Virus record (IMG/VR): IMGVR_UViG_3300008111_000121
Location: 1-51,179 of that record
Strand: one strand, 5' to 3'
Origin: a virus
DNA length: 51,179 bases
Made by a program: the position numbers and the translations under genes. The notes beneath the pieces were generated by a model. The model made no database searches, was not told the DNA's origin, and saw only the letters and a list, made by a program, of their open reading frames with translations. Shown piece after piece: positions 1-32,112 of this stretch. Each line of letters opens with the position of its first letter. The stretch's first letter is position 1.

Positions 1-9
1 AACGCACAT
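1..9 (-). CDS. start of a gene running off the left edge (partial)
   Basis: Only three codons (M-C-V) are inside the window, so no function can be given. The start is inferred because the ATG directly follows the leader AAATCAAATCAGTATG on the minus strand. The same A-rich leader precedes most other minus-strand genes here. It lies just downstream of a palindromic hairpin, as expected for the next cistron of the operon. Confidence 0.4.
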
Positions 10-29
10 ACTGATTTGATTTGTGGGCA

Positions 30-45
30 GTGTCTTTGAAGACAC
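30..45 (-). repeat. 16-bp dispersed near-palindrome, copy 1
   Basis: GTGTCTTCAAAGACAC read on the minus strand: 7-bp perfect arms around a CA centre. It sits in the 3' untranslated region of the minus-strand operon, between the 53-aa gene and the next start codon. As RNA it can form GUGUCU/AGACAC closed by a UCAA loop. No T-run follows on the minus strand, so termination is uncertain; an mRNA 3'-end or processing hairpin is as likely. Confidence 0.8.
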
Positions 46-113
46 AGAACCCGATTATTGAACTGATATTGAACGAAGATACGACATAAATTAGACATAT
101 CCAAATTTATTTT

Positions 114-275
114 TTAATAAACTTTCTTTGCCCTGAATTTTGTTCGCTCTAAATGGGGTCTGTCCACAATGAATTTGTAGTACGCCTTGTCAACAGCCTC
201 CCACTTTGTGTGGGCGACTACTGACCATACGCATACCTGTCCATAGAATACTTTGAAATAATGTTGACTTTCCAT
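114..275 (-). CDS. hypothetical small protein, 53 aa
   Basis: An uninterrupted frame starting at ATG behind the leader TTTAAATCAAGTCAATATG and ending in TAA. The protein is aromatic- and basic-rich (starts MESQHYFKVFYGQVCVW, ends FRAKKVY). No family is recognised. It follows the zinc-knuckle-like gene by 18 bases in the same operon. The leader motif and tight packing support it as a real gene despite its length. No signal peptide or membrane helix is seen. Confidence 0.6.
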   Translation of the reverse strand: MESQHYFKVFYGQVCVWSVVAHTKWEAVDKAYYKFIVDRPHLERTKFRAKKVY

Positions 276-293
276 ATTGACTTGATTTAAAAA

Positions 294-575
294 TTAATAA
301 TCATCTTCCAACCTTTCACCTGCATAGGACTCATCGAAGTACCTATCCTTCCTGTACGGATACTTGTCACTCTCGTAACAATCTCCACACCAATGCCCTG
401 TGCTGTACCCATAGGCGTCACTCTCTTCGCTAACGTTTGCCTTAGTACCACAGCCCCTGCAAGGGACTAAGTTCTCATTGCAACGCTCACATAGATTTTC
501 GTCAAACCACATATCGTGGTGACCTTGGGAGCACCCACATCCTGAGCACTCCCATACATCATTTGCTCTTGTCAT
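294..575 (-). CDS. small Cys-rich, zinc-ribbon-like protein
   Basis: A 93-aa protein with four CxxC-type pairs (CSGCGC near residue 10, CERC near 29, CRGC near 39, CGDC near 63) and nearby His residues. This suggests two zinc-binding knuckles, that is, a zinc ribbon or treble clef. The C-terminus is acidic and aromatic. Such proteins in phages usually bind nucleic acid or a host protein, but nothing here says which. The start codon follows the stop of the upstream cistron almost directly (its coding end is 2 bases away), so translation is probably coupled. The zinc-binding assignment is an inference from cysteine spacing only. Confidence 0.7.
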   Translation of the reverse strand: MTRANDVWECSGCGCSQGHHDMWFDENLCERCNENLVPCRGCGTKANVSEESDAYGYSTGHWCGDCYESDKYPYRKDRYFDESYAGERLEDDY

Positions 576-576
576 C

Positions 577-771
577 TTACTTTCTTTTTGATACGTGATA
601 GATTCTGATGCCGTTCTCGATTTTCATATCGATGGGATACACATCCACCAAGACATTGAGGTAGTACTTATACTCCTTTAATTTGTCCTCCGGTAGATAT
701 AATAGCCTGTCGATTACATCTTGAATGGTTTCGTTTCTTTGTTGTTCGGTTGTCATTTGTTCCTTTGTCAT
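577..771 (-). CDS. hypothetical protein, 64 aa
   Basis: A 64-aa charged protein. Residues 10-45 look helical (the ETIQDVIDRLLYLPEDKLK segment). The C-terminus is basic (VSKRK). The start is supported by the leader AAAATCAAATCAAAATG. No family recognised. It lies between the one-helix membrane peptide and the Cys-rich gene with minimal spacing, so all three are one transcript. A small regulatory or anti-host peptide is possible but unsupported. Confidence 0.65.
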   Translation of the reverse strand: MTKEQMTTEQQRNETIQDVIDRLLYLPEDKLKEYKYYLNVLVDVYPIDMKIENGIRIYHVSKRK

Positions 772-783
772 TTTGATTTGATT

Positions 784-909
784 TTAGTTTTTTGAATTTG
801 AAGAGATTTCATCTCTCCAATGTTGAATTAAAGTTTTAACAAACACGTATAAAACGATGACTGACAGGCTAATAACTAAAGCCTCTAAAATTGTGATGTG
901 TGTGCCCAT
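784..909 (-). CDS. small single-pass membrane protein, 41 aa
   Basis: The frame starts MGTHITILEALVISLSVIVL, then YVFVK, with a single hydrophobic helix at about residues 6-25, followed by a short hydrophilic tail (HWRDEISSNSKN). This reads as a one-pass peptide with a cytoplasmic C-terminus. The start is strongly supported by the leader AAAATCAAATCAAATG directly before ATG. It overlaps nothing and fills an otherwise unexplained gap in the operon. A function cannot be named; early phage operons often carry such peptides. Confidence 0.6.
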   Translation of the reverse strand: MGTHITILEALVISLSVIVLYVFVKTLIQHWRDEISSNSKN

Positions 910-928
910 TTGATTTGATTTTATTGGT

Positions 929-1144
929 TTACAATTGAACGCCTAAAACGTCCTTTAATGATTTTGAAATAAATTCGTGACATCGGCTGAATCTATCTTT
1001 GATAGTTATTCTGCCAATTTTTAAAGTCCACGTTCCATCTGAAAATTTTGTGATGGTTGACACAGGCGCTGTCTCATCAGGAATAAATCCTTCCTGTCTG
1101 AATACTCCCTGCACTTTCATAGTAAATAAAACATCTTGTCTCAT
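929..1144 (-). CDS. hypothetical protein, 71 aa
   Basis: MRQDVLFTMKVQG... with a likely beta-rich core (KFSDGTWTLKIGRITIKD). The open frame extends upstream, but that extension would read through the hammerhead and the palindrome. The ATG chosen here follows the leader TTAAATCAAATCAAATG, 22 bases after the ribozyme's last base. The mRNA for this gene would therefore begin with a 5'-OH end at the ribozyme cleavage site. No family recognised. Confidence 0.7.
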   Translation of the reverse strand: MRQDVLFTMKVQGVFRQEGFIPDETAPVSTITKFSDGTWTLKIGRITIKDRFSRCHEFISKSLKDVLGVQL

Positions 1145-1165
1145 TTGATTTGATTTAAATGGTTT

Positions 1166-1216
1166 CCTGTTTCGTCCTGTTAGACTCATCAGGCAAGGCA
1201 AACACCTTGCGACAGG
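1166..1216 (-). ncRNA. type III hammerhead ribozyme 1
   Basis: All core elements are present on the minus strand, in order. Stem III 5' strand is CCUG, then U16.1 and C17 with cleavage after position 1211. Stem I is GCAAGG/CCUUGC with loop UGUUUG. CUGAUGA follows at 1192-1186. Stem II is GUCU/GGAC with loop AACA. GAAA is at 1173-1170, then stem III 3' strand CAGG. The triplet cut is GUC, the classic one. Stem III is the open stem, hence type III. The layout resembles the satellite tobacco ringspot virus hammerhead. It lies in the gap between the 82-aa and 71-aa genes and reads in the direction of their transcription. Confidence 0.93.
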
Positions 1217-1236
1217 CTGTGTCTTTGAAGACACAG
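1217..1236 (-). repeat. palindromic hairpin, copy 2 of the 16-bp element, directly 5' of hammerhead 1
   Basis: The 16-mer GTGTCTTCAAAGACAC (1219-1234) is extended here to the 20-base palindrome CTGTGTC..GACACAG. It starts eight bases after the stop of the 82-aa gene and abuts stem III of hammerhead 1. After ribozyme cleavage it would be the 3'-terminal hairpin of the upstream mRNA, which could protect it from 3' exonucleases (inference). Confidence 0.8.
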
Positions 1237-1243
1237 GCTCTTT

Positions 1244-1492
1244 TTAGAATCTGTGATACATCGACCCTTTTGCATTCGGGAAAACTGACCTATCATATTT
1301 GTTGTTTTCAACCCATTTATCGTAACCTTCTAGCAATGCTTTGAACTCTGCCTCGTGGTTTACAGGGTCAAGTTTAACGCACATCAGGTTGTCCTCAATT
1401 TTAGAAAATTTAATTTTTGATTCTGTCAGGTAGCAATCCCACACTTTACTAAAATCAAAATAGTAATGCTCTTGAACGTTTTTAAATGTCAT
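1244..1492 (-). CDS. hypothetical protein, 82 aa
   Basis: Starts MTFKNVQEHYYFDFSKVWDC. A longer frame begins nine codons upstream, but this ATG has the A-rich leader ACCAAATAAAATG typical of the operon. The protein is mixed charged with several aromatic residues; no motif is recognised. It is flanked on both sides by hammerhead ribozymes, so its mRNA could be released as a monocistronic unit with a hairpin at each end. A further hairpin (GGAGGTTTGAAACCCTCC on the minus strand, about 1508-1525) lies in its 5' leader. Confidence 0.7.
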   Translation of the reverse strand: MTFKNVQEHYYFDFSKVWDCYLTESKIKFSKIEDNLMCVKLDPVNHEAEFKALLEGYDKWVENNKYDRSVFPNAKGSMYHRF

Positions 1493-1534
1493 TTTATTTG
1501 GTTTTGTGGAGGGTTTCAAACCTCCGGTTTTAAA

Positions 1535-1587
1535 TGCTGTTTCGTTCTTTTGAACTCATCAGGCAGAGCAAACACTCTGCGACAGCA
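1535..1587 (-). ncRNA. type III hammerhead ribozyme 2
   Basis: A second complete hammerhead on the minus strand. Stem III is UGCUG/CAGCA plus the U16.1-A15.1 pair, with C17 at 1581. Stem I is GCAGAG/CUCUGC with loop UGUUUG. CUGAUGA is at 1562-1556. Stem II is GUUC/GAAC with loop AAAA, then GAAA at 1543-1540. Compared with hammerhead 1, the core and stem I loop are identical. Stem I, II and III pairs have changed on both strands while remaining paired, which is direct evidence for a conserved RNA structure. Confidence 0.93.
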
Positions 1588-1606
1588 GGAGGGCAATTTG
1601 CCCTCC
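1588..1606 (-). terminator. strong hairpin directly 5' of hammerhead 2
   Basis: A 19-base perfect inverted repeat: GGAGGGCAA, one central base, TTGCCCTCC. It lies between the stop codon of the amidoligase-like gene and stem III of hammerhead 2. It occupies the same place as the palindrome before hammerhead 1 but has an unrelated sequence. No T-run follows, so it is more likely a 3'-end protecting hairpin than an intrinsic terminator. Confidence 0.55.
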
Positions 1607-1611
1607 CTGTG

Positions 1612-2523
1612 TCAATTCTCAATCCATTTGAGGATGTCTTGGTGAACCTCTCCTGTAAGGATATATTTTTGAAATAGCTTCGACAATCTTATTACTTCAT
1701 TCACTTTGTCCTCATTCCCATTGTACATAGATTTTAAAATTGGCGTTACGATTTTAATCATCGAGTCAAATTTGCCCTTCTTATTCACTGCGAAATTCAC
1801 AACCTCATACATTAACTCGTAACGCCTCATCATCTGCTTTACTGACTCAAAGCGAGACGGCAACCTGAACTCAAGGCAATTTTCTTTCACGAGCGCAACC
1901 TGATATTTGTAGTGCCAATCATAGCGACCTAAACGCCTTGCCTCATCCTCTGTTACCATCCTCTTATTTTTGTTGCAATAGCTATTTTTTAGCCTATTTC
2001 TAAACAGGGCATAGATGATGCCGGCATAATTACGAACCTCCAATCTAATCTCATTGCCTGTCATTCCCTCCACGCCTAAGGTTATGTGACCTCCGCAATT
2101 TTGAGCGGATGGGCTGAACTTGTCATCGATGATTTTCTCTGCCTTGTGCATCATATCAAAAACCTTCGTGCGCCACATTCCTGCAGGCAATAGGGGTAAA
2201 ATGTGAGTCACTGCCTCATACCCATCCACGCCCGGATGCTCGCCACAGCTTCCGTCACGCTCAAAACCGCAAAACAATTCATATTCACGTACTGCGCCTC
2301 TGTGCAATGTGTTTTTTTCAACCTCCATTCCGATGGTAAATTTGGCGCTGTATTCCATCCCGTCAAATTTGATAACGTCCCTTTGCTGTGTCTTTTTAAG
2401 ACCTGCGATGTCGATATTGCTTTTGCTCTTGTGTAACATTAGCGGAGCGGGTTTGTGATGGTATCTTGTCACTGAACCTCTCATGCTGTCTCCTGTGGTT
2501 GTGTAAACGATTCCTGTATTCAT
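1612..2523 (-). CDS. amidoligase-like (carboxylate-amine ligase fold) protein
   Basis: A 303-aa protein with the motif series of the putative phage/plasmid amidoligases (COOH-NH2 ligase superfamily). These are GMEVE (65-69), ERDGS (88-92), CGGHITLG (143-150) and LEFR (217-220), where acidic residues and His would hold Mg-ATP. The family is thought to form amide bonds on proteins or peptides, but the substrate is unknown. The C-terminal third is helical. The start follows CACATCAAAATG. It is the second cistron of the minus-strand operon, after the 216-aa gene. Function is inferred from motifs; a related ATP-grasp-like ligase is the alternative. Confidence 0.6.
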   Translation of the reverse strand: MNTGIVYTTTGDSMRGSVTRYHHKPAPLMLHKSKSNIDIAGLKKTQQRDVIKFDGMEYSAKFTIGMEVEKNTLHRGAVREYELFCGFERDGSCGEHPGVDGYEAVTHILPLLPAGMWRTKVFDMMHKAEKIIDDKFSPSAQNCGGHITLGVEGMTGNEIRLEVRNYAGIIYALFRNRLKNSYCNKNKRMVTEDEARRLGRYDWHYKYQVALVKENCLEFRLPSRFESVKQMMRRYELMYEVVNFAVNKKGKFDSMIKIVTPILKSMYNGNEDKVNEVIRLSKLFQKYILTGEVHQDILKWIEN

Positions 2524-2540
2524 TTTGATGTGGTTTTATA

Positions 2541-2556
2541 GTGTCTTTGAAGACAC
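2541..2556 (-). repeat. 16-bp dispersed near-palindrome, copy 3
   Basis: Exact GTGTCTTCAAAGACAC on the minus strand, five bases after the stop codon of the 216-aa gene and 18 bases before the ATG of the amidoligase-like gene. As elsewhere in the operon it marks the 3' end of a cistron. No hammerhead accompanies it here. Confidence 0.8.
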
Positions 2557-2560
2557 AGGG

Positions 2561-3211
2561 TTAAAATTGAGAATTTAAAAAAGCTACTGCCTCCGCTACT
2601 TCACCGCTCGTGCCATTGGTTTTGATGTTTCCGTTTGCATCAATTTTTAGTGACACTTTTTTGCCGTCTGTATTTTTGTAGGTAAAGGAAAAGATGGTTT
2701 CCGCTCTTGTTTCTACCTGTGCGCCTGTGCCTTCGCCTTCGCCTTCTGCTTCGCCTTCTCCACTGCCTTCGCCTGTTTCTCCACTGCCTGCGCCTGTTGT
2801 TTCCATCTGCTTAGCGAATTTCAATAATCCCTCTAATGACCTGTTAGGCTCTTGACCTTGTGCCTCTGCCTCTTCACATTTGGTTTTGAACGTGGCAATG
2901 GTTTCCTCCTGTAGTCTGCCTGCCTTTACAACCTTGTAGAAAAAAGACTTTTGCCATCCGAAAACTTTCTGCCCGATTTCCTCATTGCTCCAAGTGATGC
3001 CCTCTTCGTTCATTAGGCTTCTGCCCTCTTCAGAGGCAAACCAATCAACAGCAGAGGTAACCAATTTGGACAGCGCCAATGTTTGTTCAAATTTTTTCTT
3101 CTTTGCGTTCGTGATGGTTCTTTGCACGCTGCGAATTTCTGTAAGATTCAAACCTTGTTTTACTGCAGGTAGGTTTAGGAAAGCCTGCTCGATGTTTAGC
3201 AAATTGCTCAT
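2561..3211 (-). CDS. hypothetical protein with acidic Gly-Glu linker, 216 aa
   Basis: First gene of the minus-strand operon. Residues 1-135 are helical and charged, with a basic patch (TITNAKKKKFEQ) and a region (WSNEEIGQKVFGWQKSFFYK, near 75-95) that could be a helix-turn-helix. Then comes a low-complexity acidic stretch (GSGEGEAEGEGEGTG). A compact C-terminal beta-like domain follows (TIFSFTYKNTDGKKVSLKID). The likely reading is a DNA-binding or replication-associated protein, but no family is recognised. Its position beside operator-like repeats is compatible with an autoregulated early protein (inference). Confidence 0.6.
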   Translation of the reverse strand: MSNLLNIEQAFLNLPAVKQGLNLTEIRSVQRTITNAKKKKFEQTLALSKLVTSAVDWFASEEGRSLMNEEGITWSNEEIGQKVFGWQKSFFYKVVKAGRLQEETIATFKTKCEEAEAQGQEPNRSLEGLLKFAKQMETTGAGSGETGEGSGEGEAEGEGEGTGAQVETRAETIFSFTYKNTDGKKVSLKIDANGNIKTNGTSGEVAEAVAFLNSQF

Positions 3212-3243
3212 AACTGATTGATTTTTAATGATTTAGGTTAATT

Positions 3244-3286
3244 GTTGTACATTGCTAGTGCAATGCCTGTACAATATTAGTACAAT
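3244..3286. promoter_or_regulatory. operator-like cluster of TTGTAC/GTACAA repeats
   Basis: Within 43 bases there is TTGTAC (3245-3250), an inverted repeat CATTGC-tagt-GCAATG (3250-3265) and two direct copies of GTACAAT (3269-3275 and 3280-3286). It lies upstream of the minus-strand operon. On the minus strand TAATATTG, one base from the TAnnTTTG consensus, overlaps the repeats. This suits an operator over the operon promoter; the binding protein is not known. Confidence 0.4.
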
Positions 3287-3400
3287 ACTTTGATATAAAA
3301 AACAATTATTTTAAAAATGTGGATAACTATTTTTTGTGAGCGGAATATTTACAGGTCAAAAGATGGGGATGGGGTTACCTCTCTTCTGCAACCTTGTGCA

Positions 3401-3416
3401 GTGTCTTCAAAGACAC
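3401..3416 (+). repeat. 16-bp dispersed near-palindrome, copy 4
   Basis: Exact GTGTCTTCAAAGACAC on the plus strand in the control region, followed directly by the GGAGG-rich tract. It is the first copy oriented with the rightward genes, but no gene ends immediately upstream of it. This makes it unlike the other intergenic copies. Confidence 0.75.
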
Positions 3417-3674
3417 AGGAGGAGGCAGGGAGGAGGAGCGGAGACAGGAGGAGGGATGGCAGGGAGGAGGCACGAGCGCCACAGGAACGGGAGCGGAGGC
3501 GCAATGGTTAGCGCCTCTGCTACTACATAGGCACGCTACGGAAAAGCTAAAAAATCCGGCAGGGGATTTTGAAAACGCACCCCCACCCCCTCAAAAAAAA
3601 ATGACTTTCGTTTTCGGGTCGGCTGCGCCAAATGCCCCTATAACCCAAACACTACTACTATCTGAAAATTTTTT

Positions 3675-3682
3675 TATCTTTA
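3675..3682 (+). promoter_or_regulatory. weak TAnnTTTG-like promoter element
   Basis: TATCTTTA, one base off the Bacteroidota -7 consensus TAnnTTTG, lies 39 bases before the ATG of the 85-aa gene. No clear -33 TTTG is seen at the usual spacing. A tentative promoter for that gene. Confidence 0.3.
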
Positions 3683-3721
3683 CTCTGAAATATTTCTAAA
3701 AACGTTTTAAAACAAATTATT

Positions 3722-3979
3722 ATGAAACTAAAATTCAAAGACTCGATTTACAAGAAGGATTTGAGTAATAGCATCTATCAGCAGAGTGGAGCCAATTTTG
3801 GTTTGACTGTGAATGGTGGTATGCTAATCAACAATCGTCCTGATGGTCAGACCGGTATCCAACAGGCTGCCGAGGTAAAGAAGGTAATTAAGAAAGCTGA
3901 GAAGGTTCAGATGATGTCTGAGGCTGTTTACTTGGGTAATATCCGTTCAGAGATGATGGAAGGACCTGAGATGGACTAA
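3722..3979 (+). CDS. hypothetical protein, 85 aa
   Basis: MKLKFKDSIYKKDLSNSIYQ..., with a Gly/Asn-rich middle (NGGMLINNRPDGQTG) and a helical second half with an acidic end (EMMEGPEMD). No family is recognised. It is transcribed alone: a control region lies on its left and an intrinsic terminator follows its stop, so it is probably a monocistronic transcript. Codon use and composition match the rightward genes. Confidence 0.6.
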   Translation: MKLKFKDSIYKKDLSNSIYQQSGANFGLTVNGGMLINNRPDGQTGIQQAAEVKKVIKKAEKVQMMSEAVYLGNIRSEMMEGPEMD

Positions 3980-4009
3980 GTTATTTTGAGGTTAAATGTT
4001 GTTTAGAGG

Positions 4010-4039
4010 AGGGCTCAATATTGAGCTCTCTTTCTTTTT
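4010..4039 (+). terminator. intrinsic terminator after the 85-aa gene
   Basis: The hairpin AGGGCTCA-ata-TTGAGCTCT (8-9 bp, one G-U pair) is followed by CTTTCTTTTT. It lies 30 bases after the stop codon. Confidence 0.6.
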
Positions 4040-4058
4040 GTACCTACCTATGTTAAAT

Positions 4059-4365
4059 TCGACATTATTGTCATTAATTTATGTCGTTTTTATGTCGACT
4101 TGATTTTTCTAACTTATTGATTATTAATACTTTATTTCTTTAATGTCGAAAATGTCGATTTTAAAGAGAATATTTTATGGGAAAAATATAATATAAAGGA
4201 GGTAAATATATATATATAATAGGGAGAAAAATTCTGCATTTACGGCACAACAGTGTCGTAAACTCAGCTAAACCCTTGATACTATTGCGTTTGAGCGAAT
4301 GTCGAGTTTTGACAAACCAACATATACTTGGCATAAATCGACATCAAGATTTTAAATTCCGACAT
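4059..4365. repeat. cluster of ATGTCGA boxes in an AT-rich noncoding region (possible origin or operator)
   Basis: ATGTCGA or its complement, or a one-base variant, occurs at 4059-4065 (rev), 4081-4086, 4092-4098, 4143-4149, 4152-4158, 4299-4305, 4338-4344 (rev) and 4360-4365 (rev). The same region has a TA-dinucleotide tract (about 4206-4218). It also has a hairpin, TTTACGGCAC/GTGTCGTAAA (4239-4262), and two small ones, AACGC/GCGTT (4369-4380) and TACCC/GGGTA (4405-4418). Iterated boxes beside an easily melted AT tract are typical of a replication origin or a multi-site operator; which one is not known. No gene is seen from 4040 to 4521. Confidence 0.5.
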
Positions 4366-4478
4366 TAGAACGCTTGCGTTTTAATAATCGAAGTGTAATC
4401 TCCCTACCCTTACGGGTATAATCTATTAATTGGAATAAATAATTTTTAAAAATAATGGTTAATATACCGAAGGTTGAC

Positions 4479-4486
4479 TATATTTG
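4479..4486 (+). promoter_or_regulatory. TAnnTTTG promoter element of the chaperonin operon
   Basis: TATATTTG matches the Bacteroidota -7 element and lies 36 bases before the first ATG of the operon. No good -33 TTTG is visible. The leader that follows ends in TTAAATTAAATCAAATG. Confidence 0.45.
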
Positions 4487-4521
4487 TACATCAATATTGA
4501 TTAACAATTAAATTAAATCAA

Positions 4522-4713
4522 ATGAGTAATGAAATGCCTTGGGAGCCAACTTTTGGAAAAGAACTATGTGCTGAGTTAGCAGACTTGTTATATGATAATA
4601 GGCAAAAAGATATTGAAGGTTTATTTATTGAGCATTCTATATTTTCTGCTGCTATTACAGATATTTTAAAAGCACAGATGATGGTTGTAAAGTCTTTAAC
4701 ATTAAAATTTTAA
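4522..4713 (+). CDS. hypothetical protein upstream of groEL, 63 aa
   Basis: MSNEMPWEPTFGKELCAELA..., helical and acidic in the first half, with a hydrophobic second helix (IFSAAITDILKAQMMVVKSL). No family is recognised. It has the typical TTAAATCAAATG leader and ends five bases before the groEL ATG, so it is the leading cistron of the chaperonin operon. It may be a small partner or regulator of the chaperonin (inference from position only). Confidence 0.65.
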   Translation: MSNEMPWEPTFGKELCAELADLLYDNRQKDIEGLFIEHSIFSAAITDILKAQMMVVKSLTLKF

Positions 4714-4718
4714 ATAAA

Positions 4719-6332
4719 ATGGTAGAAACGTCAGGAGTTGGGTATTCACCCAAGGATTTGCAGTTCGGTTCGGACGGCAGAAAGAAACTTATCAGTGGTG
4801 TAGTAAAGATGTCTAAGGCTGTTAAGTCAACGCTTGGACCAAGTGGTAACACTGTACTCATTGAGAGTCCACATCACACACACGGCATTACAGTTACCAA
4901 AGATGGTGTAACAGTTGCCAAGTCAATTGACCTCATTGACCCAAGCGAGAACCTTGCGGTTAAGATGATGAAAGAAGCGGCAGACAAGACAGCTACCGCT
5001 GCCGGTGATGGTACAACCACAGCGATTGTCTTGACTGAAGGATTGGTACTTGGTGGACTTGAGCATATCAAAGAGGATATGAACAGGACTGAGGTGCTGA
5101 GACATATGGTGGACATTAGTAACAAGGTGGTGGACAAGTTAAGACGTAAGGCAAAGAAAGTGAGCAGCACGATGTTATTGGATGTGGCATCAATAAGTGC
5201 CAACAATGACAGAGAGATTGGTCGCATTATTGCTGAGGTGTATAAAGACGTAGGTAAGACCGGTATTGTTACAGTGGAGAGAAGCCAAACGGCAGACACA
5301 TATGCTGAGACGACCAAGGGATTGAAGTTTGACAGGGGGTATTTGAGTCCGATGTTTATCAATGACGTGAAAAAGGACGAGTGTGTGTTTGAGGATGTGA
5401 TGGTATTGGTAGCTGATATGGAGATAGCTAACATCCTGCAGATTGAAAACGTGTTGAAGCCAATCATTAGTGAGGGAAAGAAGCTACTTATCATTTCTCC
5501 GTGTAATACAAACGTGGTTAACACGCTTGCAGCGAACACAGTGAAGGGGAATTTGAAAGTGGTGGCTGTGCCTCCGCCTAATTTTGGCTACAAGCAGCAC
5601 GAGTTGATGCAAGATATTGCGATTAGTGTAGGAGCAACCTACTATAGTGAGAAGACGGGTGATGATTTGAGCCATATCAACTACGGAGACTTAGGTCACG
5701 CAGGGAAAGTTATTGTGAGCAAGGACAAAACTGTGATTATTCGCAGTGCAGCCAAGGCTGACCAAGCAGCAATTGATGAAAGAGTGGCTCAATTGTGGGA
5801 GGCACATAGTCAAGCGACTAAAAAAGCGGACAAAGACTTCTTATTGGAGAGAATAGCGTCACTTACAGGTGGCATTGGTGTAATATTCGTAGGTGGTCAG
5901 ACTGACCTTGAGCAAAAAGAGTTGTATGATAGAGTTGATGATGCAGTTTGTGCAGTACGTTCCGCACTTGAGGAGGGTATTTTACCGGGTGCCGGCAAAG
6001 CGTTACTTGATGAGAGTGCTGAGATTGAAATGTTAGGCACAAGTCGTGAGTATGAGGCAGCAGTTAACATTGTTCGCAACGCTCTTATGGCTCCATTCCA
6101 ACAAATCTTGGCTAACGCAGGATTGAAACCAAGTGATGTGTACAAAGAAGGTACGCCTGTTGGTCACGGATACAACCTAAAGACCGGTCAGATGGGTGAC
6201 TTGGTGCAGATGGGTGTAATTGACCCGTTAAAGGTGACACGCAGTGCGCTTCAAAACGCAATCAGTGTAGCTGTAACCATCCTAAGTACAAACGCAATTA
6301 TCACAATGGCTCGTAGCTACGAGCAACAATAG
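4719..6332 (+). CDS. groEL: phage-encoded GroEL-type chaperonin (Hsp60)
   Basis: A 537-aa group I chaperonin, close to the 548 aa of E. coli GroEL. TLGPSGN (39-45), KDGVTVAK (61-68) and GDGTTTA (96-102) form the nucleotide pocket, including the catalytic Asp. The C-terminal equatorial half has GGIGVIFVGG, then RVDDAVCAVRSALEEGILPG, where the second catalytic Asp is kept. The intermediate and apical domains are full length. The C-terminus ends MARSYEQQ and lacks the Gly-Gly-Met tail that lines the cavity floor of bacterial GroEL. It should form an ATP-driven folding ring, probably for capsid or tail proteins, with the downstream co-chaperonin. An N-terminal extension of about 10 residues is unusual. 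Confidence 0.95.
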   Translation: MVETSGVGYSPKDLQFGSDGRKKLISGVVKMSKAVKSTLGPSGNTVLIESPHHTHGITVTKDGVTVAKSIDLIDPSENLAVKMMKEAADKTATAAGDGTTTAIVLTEGLVLGGLEHIKEDMNRTEVLRHMVDISNKVVDKLRRKAKKVSSTMLLDVASISANNDREIGRIIAEVYKDVGKTGIVTVERSQTADTYAETTKGLKFDRGYLSPMFINDVKKDECVFEDVMVLVADMEIANILQIENVLKPIISEGKKLLIISPCNTNVVNTLAANTVKGNLKVVAVPPPNFGYKQHELMQDIAISVGATYYSEKTGDDLSHINYGDLGHAGKVIVSKDKTVIIRSAAKADQAAIDERVAQLWEAHSQATKKADKDFLLERIASLTGGIGVIFVGGQTDLEQKELYDRVDDAVCAVRSALEEGILPGAGKALLDESAEIEMLGTSREYEAAVNIVRNALMAPFQQILANAGLKPSDVYKEGTPVGHGYNLKTGQMGDLVQMGVIDPLKVTRSALQNAISVAVTILSTNAIITMARSYEQQ

Positions 6333-8201: not shown

Positions 8202-8669
8202 ATGGCAGACAAGTCAAAAATGCAATGTAACCGTCCTACTGCTTCGGATAGACCGGGCAAGAAGAAGATGGTTAAAGCCTGTTCCGGAGGGGAGGAGAAA
8301 CTCCTCCACTTCGGAGCCAAAGGCTATGGTAATAATTACTCTGCTGCTGCTCGTAAAAGTTTTAAAGCAAGAGATGTATTCCCATCTGCTCGTGCATCAC
8401 AAGCAATAGCTAAGTGTCGCAAGGGTTCAGGTGTGGTGAGAAAGACTGAGGCAGGCAGTAGTTTGAAAAGGTGGGAGAAAGAGAAGTGGCAGGATACAAA
8501 AACAGGTAAAGCCTGTGGTGCAGGTGGTAGCAATGAATATTGCAGACCAACAACAAGAGTGTCTTCAAAGACACCGAAAACAAAATCGGAAATAAGTCCT
8601 TCTAAACTTGCCTCTAAAAAAGCTGAGAAGTCAAGAGTTGGTATGGGTAGAAGAGTTTTAAATATTTAA
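8202..8669 (+). CDS. DUF5872-like phage protein with N-terminal virion-associated module, 155 aa
   Basis: Two modules are visible. Residues 20-55 (KKKMVKACSGGEEKLLHFGA, then KGYGNNYSAAARKSFKAR) match a Cys/Gly motif known from small phage virion-associated proteins. Residues 85-130 (KRWEKEKWQDTKTGKACG ... YCRPTTRVSSKTPKT) match the DUF5872-type motif of viral proteins, with conserved Trp-Lys-Trp spacing, two Cys and RVSSKTPKT. Function is unknown, probably DNA- or capsid-associated. The GTGTCTTCAAAGACAC element lies exactly on the RVSSKTP codons. Family recall is from memory and moderate. Confidence 0.55.
   Translation: MADKSKMQCNRPTASDRPGKKKMVKACSGGEEKLLHFGAKGYGNNYSAAARKSFKARDVFPSARASQAIAKCRKGSGVVRKTEAGSSLKRWEKEKWQDTKTGKACGAGGSNEYCRPTTRVSSKTPKTKSEISPSKLASKKAEKSRVGMGRRVLNI
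8559..8574 (+). repeat. 16-bp dispersed near-palindrome, copy 5 (inside a gene)
   Basis: Exact GTGTCTTCAAAGACAC within the 155-aa gene, read as Val-Ser-Ser-Lys-Thr, part of the motif RVSSKTPKT. Same orientation relative to transcription as all other copies. Confidence 0.8.
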
Positions 8670-32077: not shown

Positions 32078-32112
32078 GGAGGGTGTCTTTAAAGACACTC
32101 TCCTTTTTTTTA
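32078..32112 (+). terminator. intrinsic terminator after the capsid gene, with palindrome variant
   Basis: Stem GGAGGGTGTCTT/AAGACACTCTCC (one G-U pair) around a centre of TTTAAA, followed by nine T. The core GTGTCTTTAAAGACAC (32083-32098) is the perfectly palindromic variant of the 16-bp dispersed element. Confidence 0.85.

Follow-up and report, generated by a model that had tools for sequence, protein, structure and literature searches.

A strong hairpin followed immediately by a hammerhead ribozyme may act, in the phage operon described here, as a punctuation module that forms mRNA 3' ends, leaving the upstream mRNA capped by a hairpin while transcription continues; a probability of roughly 60% is given to this reading. 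The window, meaning the whole stretch of DNA that was analyzed, comprises the 51,179 nucleotides of virus record IMGVR_UViG_3300008111_000121 and carries two type III hammerheads. Motifs of this kind are found at an orthologous position and on the operon strand in related phages, their stems covary, a hairpin abuts many of them, and the gene that follows them turns over.

Two type III hammerheads in a phage operon

Hammerhead 2 (1587 to 1535, minus strand) is composed of stem III (1587-1582/1540-1535), C17 at 1581, the stem I hairpin (1580-1563), the core (1562-1556), stem II (1555-1544) and GAAA (1543-1540), and reads UGCUGU-C^GCAGAG-UGUUUG-CUCUGC-CUGAUGA-GUUC-AAAA-GAAC-GAAA-CAGCA, with cleavage predicted at 1581/1580. 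Hammerhead 1 (1216 to 1166, minus strand) is laid out in the same order, with stem III at 1216-1212/1170-1166, C17 at 1211, the stem I hairpin at 1210-1193, the core at 1192-1186, stem II at 1185-1174 and GAAA at 1173-1170; it reads CCUGU-C^GCAAGG-UGUUUG-CCUUGC-CUGAUGA-GUCU-AACA-GGAC-GAAA-CAGG, with cleavage predicted at 1211/1210. Both were found by the Rfam model RF00008, by a descriptor, by folding and by a custom covariance model. They hold the core CUGANGA ... GAA(A15.1), U16.1 and H17, all in type III order; stems I and II are closed by loops and stem III is open in the fold and in the RF00008 alignments, and when each motif is folded singly the minimum free energy structure is that of a hammerhead. 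At the level of sequence the two are confirmed as type III hammerheads, with self-cleavage predicted from the class, which bears out the preliminary description of two complete motifs on the minus strand; the 5' ends that it expected, 1210 and 1580, coincide with the predicted cleavage positions.

A permissive scan with RF00008 (Hammerhead_3) produced full-length alignments over core and stems at 37.9 and 42.3 bits (E 9.4e-6 and 5.5e-7; 4.5 kb searched), so the check with Rfam hammerhead models that had been proposed does recover both motifs, though below the curated gathering cut-off of 48.5; for this reason an Rfam scan of the window at default settings returns no match. A related motif in locus L071 scores 47.6 against the same model. 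The custom covariance model, for which 37 motifs including both of those in the window were used, gives the window pair 68.2 and 73.4 bits and the next best place in the window 10.7. No type I hammerhead was found in the window by a type I descriptor scan, and the same descriptors match neither type III (0) nor type I (0) once the sequences of 80 related loci are reversed. Chance matches were considered and are ruled out by the gap in model score and by these reversed controls. Across the motif set, loop I recurs as UGUGUG, UGUGUA, UGAGUG or UGUUUG and loop II as NAAA, recurrent sequences that suggest a tertiary contact between the two loops; the window hammerheads presumably resemble the satellite tobacco ringspot virus hammerhead (loop I UGUG...).

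The terminase large subunit, portal, tail fiber and GroEL homolog of the virus record match phage families. The terminase shares 78.8% identity with its counterpart in the uncultured podovirus genome MW202828.1 and about 44% with those of Flavobacterium phages, with Cellulophaga phages likewise among its matches, and judged by these proteins the phage is a relative of Flavobacterium/Cellulophaga phages. The GroEL homolog is encoded at 4719-6332 (PHROG 5725, E 3.2e-135). A longer assembly, IMGVR_UViG_3300021598_000208 (G001; 63,549 bases), holds the same operon, in which both window motifs recur and a third hammerhead lies beyond the window (G001 31581-31530), 2.3 kb further on and 37 nt past the stop codon of the gene termed GATase-GGCT; its stem II is closed by U.U and its cleavage site is GUA. 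The operon runs in the order 216-aa gene, hairpin, P0001, hairpin, hammerhead 2, P0002, and then hairpin, hammerhead 1, P0003 and small genes, hairpin, GATase-GGCT, hairpin, hammerhead 3.

The conserved hammerhead belongs to the 3' end of the gene P0001 (1612-2523, minus strand, 303 aa). The P0001 protein has no credible Pfam match among 32 members searched and no sequence match in the PDB. Its predicted structure has a pLDDT of 94.5, and each of the 50 Foldseek matches listed is a glutamine synthetase, GmaS, YbdK or PafA (best E 6.6e-6, TM about 0.33); structure comparison gave a VIA Z of 9.2 and an rmsd of 4.3, with 191 and 190 positions aligned with 1tt4 and 1r8g. From this modeling P0001 appears to be amidoligase-like, with a glutamine-synthetase/YbdK-like fold and low TM-scores. 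P0002 (1244-1492, minus strand, 82 aa) is located between hammerheads 2 and 1, inside the predicted 370-nt fragment 1580-1211; it has no match in named phages and, besides the same phage, one weak relative among the 80 loci. P0003 (929-1144, minus strand, 71 aa) follows hammerhead 1. The class II GATase-GGCT gene enters the window with its first codons only (1-9, minus strand) and encodes 366 aa in the longer assembly; the protein matches Pfam GGACT (E 1.1e-22) and, weakly, GATase families. The operon thus pairs an amidoligase-like protein with a class II GATase-GGCT fusion (window 1612-2523 and 1-9; L002 8765-9865), and both genes are present in 73 of the best 80 of 88 viral loci.

Conserved position, covariation and exchange of the downstream gene

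Related loci were fetched with the GATase-GGCT protein as bait and not with the ribozyme, and the best 80 of 88 viral loci were retained. Type III hammerheads number 138 in these loci, without exception on the operon strand, with at least one in 73 loci, none in 7 and exactly one in 36. A further scan, for type I, gave 28 copies spread over 14 loci of the 80, and these too share the strand of the operon. At site 1, defined as the position after the stop codon of the P0001 ortholog, a hammerhead begins 22-60 nt past the stop in 63 of the 73 loci that have an ortholog, the lowest P0001 protein identity within these 63 being 39%. Absence of the motif from relatives in which the surrounding genes are conserved would have counted against the preliminary description; the opposite is found. 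When the orthologs are clustered by single linkage (71 of 73 P0001 proteins usable), an identity threshold of 90% leaves 54 clusters, 45 of which keep site 1, and one of 70% leaves 34, of which 28 keep it, so redundancy does not explain the conservation. A hammerhead also occurs 28-76 nt downstream of the GATase-GGCT stop codon in 33 of 79 loci. In whole records from the 80 loci the custom model finds hammerheads in 32 of 34, and among 23 records collected earlier, some of them picked for having hammerheads, 18 were positive and 13 held three to five. MW202828.1, the nearest named genome, has relatives of P0001 and GATase-GGCT and no hammerhead by the custom model.

Of the ten loci that are exceptions at site 1, four have a variant hammerhead there: the core of L351 differs by one change, L365 and L374 carry an extra U ahead of stem II, and in L348 the site is occupied by a type I hammerhead. 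The other six (L334, L315, L373, L371, L372 and L377) are without a hammerhead there; L334 has a long hairpin instead, and in L371, L372 and L377 P0001 adjoins the GATase gene. The elements at site 1 of L315 (4730-4805) and L373 (5205-5250) look by eye like a tRNA T-arm plus acceptor; ARAGORN and Rfam call no tRNA at either site, and perhaps these elements are another processing signal. The loci with type I copies are L322, L325, L332, L333, L336, L348, L349, L352, L362, L366, L367, L368, L378 and L380, with stem I GGUUAA/UUAACC in many copies and several copies in some loci. The cultured Cellulophaga phage phi18:3 (KC821620.1; L381:3995-4049) has a type I hammerhead between gp050 and gp049, four genes upstream of the ardA-like gp045.

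A first broad sequence pattern matched at least 120 viral stretches, with type III hammerheads by descriptor in 31 of 120 and not in 89. The pattern CTGATGATTNNNAAANNNATGAAACNG gave 7 matches in bacterial and archaeal genome contigs, with hammerhead stems by descriptor in 0 of 7. Placement of 159 motifs relative to ORFs put 120 in intergenic positions, 15 in same-strand ORFs and 24 in opposite-strand ORFs by a crude caller, and conclusions on placement are based on the homology-anchored sites rather than on these calls.

The gene downstream of site 1 was taken as an ORF of 30 aa or more that begins with ATG and lies within 140 nt. Such an ORF is present in 61 of the 63 loci, where it represents 30 families, while the gene upstream stays the same; the ribozyme is therefore associated with the 3' end of the latter. 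Two type III motifs on one strand that flank a short segment also recall retrozymes and viroid-like RNAs with the type III fold, in which case the hammerheads would free the 370-nt RNA 1580-1211, containing P0002, for ligation into a circle. Circular RNAs are the means by which retrozymes spread (PMC6155905), and spliced or circular products are reported to have gone undetected in the work of PMC3088659. Unlike retrozymes and viroid-like RNAs, the present motifs have no conserved unit length, have genes in between and belong to a DNA phage operon: 36 of the 80 loci hold a single type III hammerhead, the 65 consecutive-pair spacings span 310 to 3697 nt, and the genes after site 1 are unconserved. 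Excision and circularization is accordingly rated very improbable.

An alignment of 35 of the 63 site-1 motifs, from which near-duplicates were removed by hand, has 12 of 15 pairs changing on both sides and 97.7% of cells paired, with a covariation score of 0.767, as opposed to 0.228 when shuffled and at most 0.150 when slid; further pair types number 30, compared with 30.4 in shuffles, and show no excess. In the broader set A1, 13 of 15 pairs change on both sides and the score is 0.733 versus 0.237. The earlier proposal that the stems are under selection for structure is strongly supported by the covariation at the orthologous site. The free exchange of the downstream gene, together with the dispersal of 16-nt dyads over the genome, would also suit a recombination boundary, at which the hairpin and hammerhead DNA serves mainly as short homology for cassette exchange and ribozyme activity is incidental. 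Against this, the stems change by compensating pairs around a fixed unpaired core, and in L348 the position of type III is taken by type I, which indicates selection on RNA and not on DNA homology; a recombination boundary is held to be quite improbable.

Variation in the core is of several kinds, with U.U, A.A, an inserted U and A9 to U all present. In L002, L071, L133, L191, L220 and many other loci stem II is closed by U10.1.U11.1 or A.A, mostly with A17, and a further phage hammerhead group has an extra U before stem II. On the tree of P0001, six or more switches of class (G-C, U.U or A.A) occur at site 1; since positions 10.1 and 11.1 were set in the search patterns, the frequencies of the classes do not measure abundance. 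Among unique stem I hairpins, A17 occurs in 69 of 79 with U.U and in 13 of 57 with G-C (Fisher p 1.6e-14, the rows being related). The P0001 tree yields two independent U.U/A17 pairs on supported branches, which point the same way or show no difference, and five on all branches, too few for the coupling of U10.1.U11.1 with A17 to be more than suggestive. A U10.1-U11.1 variant is mentioned in PMC3088659, and PaP3 is named there among the tested core variants, in a passage that does not assign the U.U to that phage; hammerhead 3 and many motifs of the group share its U.U closure, often with A17, whereas both window motifs have the normal G-C closure. With one U.U motif as query, partial matches were obtained in 79 named phage records, 72 of them of Pseudomonas, and the two records inspected, the Pseudomonas phages PaP4 and DL54 (Bruynoghevirus), each hold a full U.U type III motif. 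In both PaP4 (L299:233-289) and DL54 (L300:700-756) the 3' strand of stem III overlaps an annotated gene start. The PaP4 sequence upstream of the hammerhead forms hairpins no better than shuffles do (z -1.08), and stem III is absent from its fold. Variant cores could signify that the motifs are relics that no longer cut in vivo and persist as structured spacers; yet both window motifs have canonical cores, covariation is strong, and the U-U mismatch is described in PMC3088659 as supporting higher activity than any other mispair, making a relic hardly credible.

The abutting hairpin and its repeated words

Upstream of hammerhead 2 the GC-rich hairpin GGGAGGGCAAAUUGCCCUCC (1588-1607, minus strand) abuts the 5' side of stem III in the fold, and the 5' side of stem III of hammerhead 1 is abutted by the hairpin CUGUGUCUUCAAAGACACAG (1217-1236, minus strand), which includes a repeated 16-nt dyad. 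Another GC-rich hairpin, terminator-like on the plus strand, is seen at 1507-1526 in the leader between hammerhead 2 and P0002. With abutting defined as a strong hairpin that ends at the 5' side of stem III or one base before it, 44 of 63 hammerheads at site 1 and 32 of 33 after GATase-GGCT are so preceded; the remaining 19 of 63 at site 1 have no perfect hairpin by this rule, imperfect ones being present in some, and none is visible at site 1 of L341, L342, L343 and L345. Among motifs fetched by sequence pattern an abutting hairpin is found in 79 of 159; dinucleotide shuffles give an expectation of 3.3, and on the 3' side there are 8. The share is 50 of 59 within P0001/GATase-GGCT loci and is lower outside them, 29 of 100 (2.2 expected). 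In the sense (minus) strand of window positions 1-4600 there is no terminator-like site, i.e., a GC hairpin followed by a U-tract.

The predicted cut in type III lies 4-8 nt past the hairpin-proximal end of stem III. In type I, stem III has a median of 12 pairs and is by topology closed and upstream of the cut; 16 of 25 distinct type I copies hold one of four 16-nt words in this stem, and the same words precede type III hammerheads in 30 of 63 cases at site 1 and 25 of 33 after GATase-GGCT. As the word-bearing hairpin stands before type III and inside stem III of type I, the upstream product would be hairpin-ended in both permutations. When hammerhead 1 is folded together with its upstream hairpin (78 nt), the minimum free energy fold breaks the ribozyme, with the stem III strand partly in the hairpin; the efficiency of hammerhead 1 may therefore be lower or hinge on co-transcriptional folding.

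The dyad GTGTCTTNNAAGACAC / GTGTCTTYRAAGACAC occurs eight times in the window, at 30, 1219, 2541, 3401, 8559, 25134, 32083 and 46226, where 0.00 copies are expected by chance with one mismatch allowed. Word counts were made in 13 records per word, these having been chosen after inspection of their hairpins: GTGTCTTNNAAGACAC has 11 copies in the longer assembly, 10, 16 and 13 in three relatives and 0 in eight others. In those eight, GTCYGTTNNAACRGAC has 10 and 15 copies in two records and one copy in another, GAGGGTTNNAACCCTC has 11 and 8 copies in two records and one copy in another, and GTGTACANNTGTACAC has 6 copies in one, while G049 has none of the four words; in all, 10 of the 13 records have one of the four words repeated 6-16 times. 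Copies without a hammerhead are found at 2541-2556 (minus strand), at the gene end upstream of P0001, and at 30-45 (minus strand), just upstream of the GATase-GGCT start. The copy at 32083 is followed by a U-tract and resembles an ordinary terminator, and the copies at 8559, 25134 (terminase) and 46226 fall within listed ORFs, so the hairpin may have another role.

One such role would be that of a protein-binding site, DNA operator-like or in RNA, for a phage factor, with the hammerhead next to it serving some other end, for example the trimming of a 5' leader or 5' triphosphate from the downstream mRNA. The repetition of the words, also away from hammerheads, fits this, as does the short distance from hammerhead to next start codon, a median of 22 nt at site 1. 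It sits poorly with the constant partner being the upstream gene and not the downstream one, and with the many abutting hairpins that are not a word, such as that at 1588-1607, and is judged unlikely. A broader proposal, which is doubtful at present, holds that the lineage has replaced operon termination by a ribozyme 3'-end machine, in which many genomes would place their own 16-nt word, probably read by a cognate phage factor, at chosen mRNA 3' ends (in the adjacent hairpin for type III, inside stem III for type I); word and reader would change together while the cut stays.

Proposed formation of mRNA 3' ends and relation to known systems

In the 3'-end-forming module favored here, the operon would be transcribed right to left into one long RNA, and after the stop codons of certain genes, chiefly P0001 and GATase-GGCT, a strong hairpin would form, with the hammerhead immediately after it. 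The hammerhead is expected to cut itself, both the cleavage and the end chemistry of these RNAs being inferred from the known class. The upstream mRNA would then end in the hairpin and a tail of 4-8 nt bearing a 2',3'-cyclic phosphate, like the 3' end made by an intrinsic terminator, and the downstream RNA would begin with a 5'-OH and the stem I hairpin. RNA polymerase would keep going, the fates of neighboring cistrons would be separated, and the downstream gene would become exchangeable; the hairpin may protect the 3' end, to the presumed benefit of the upstream mRNA. The circular-RNA, recombination and binding-site readings are less likely than this one. Intrinsic terminators give a hairpin-ended upstream mRNA, and tRNA punctuation is a form of processing between cistrons; in contrast to both, the cut here would be made by a ribozyme in the RNA itself, and no U-tract is involved.

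Clustered hammerheads that flank single genes have been described in prophages (Perreault et al. 2011, PMC3088659), where three tandem arrangements cleave in vitro and a triple hammerhead from A. tumefaciens is active when cloned in E. coli. The preliminary description was therefore only partly right in calling several hammerheads per operon unusual, and since such clusters have been in print since 2011, the pair in the window is not novel in itself. The prophage clusters likewise place several hammerheads between phage operon genes, and processing of long transcripts has already been proposed for them (PMC3088659); here, apparently in contrast, dozens of phages keep a hammerhead at a single orthologous site, where the gene before it stays the same, the genes after it are swapped and a hairpin abuts it. 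The literature searched, mostly titles and the beginnings of abstracts, contained no hairpin-plus-hammerhead 3'-end module. As far as this search extends, the following are new: an orthologous site kept at one gene end, with exchange of the genes after it; the abutting hairpin; and the recurrence of the same repeated words in type III and type I.

The role of hammerheads in prokaryotes and phages was regarded as an open question in a 2017 review (PMC6155905). With one conserved ribozyme position, and with its natural replacements by type I and by variant cores, a role in processing that had been vague becomes a definite prediction for 3' ends. If the prediction is true, self-cleavage can stand in for a terminator without halting the polymerase, which would be useful for operon building.
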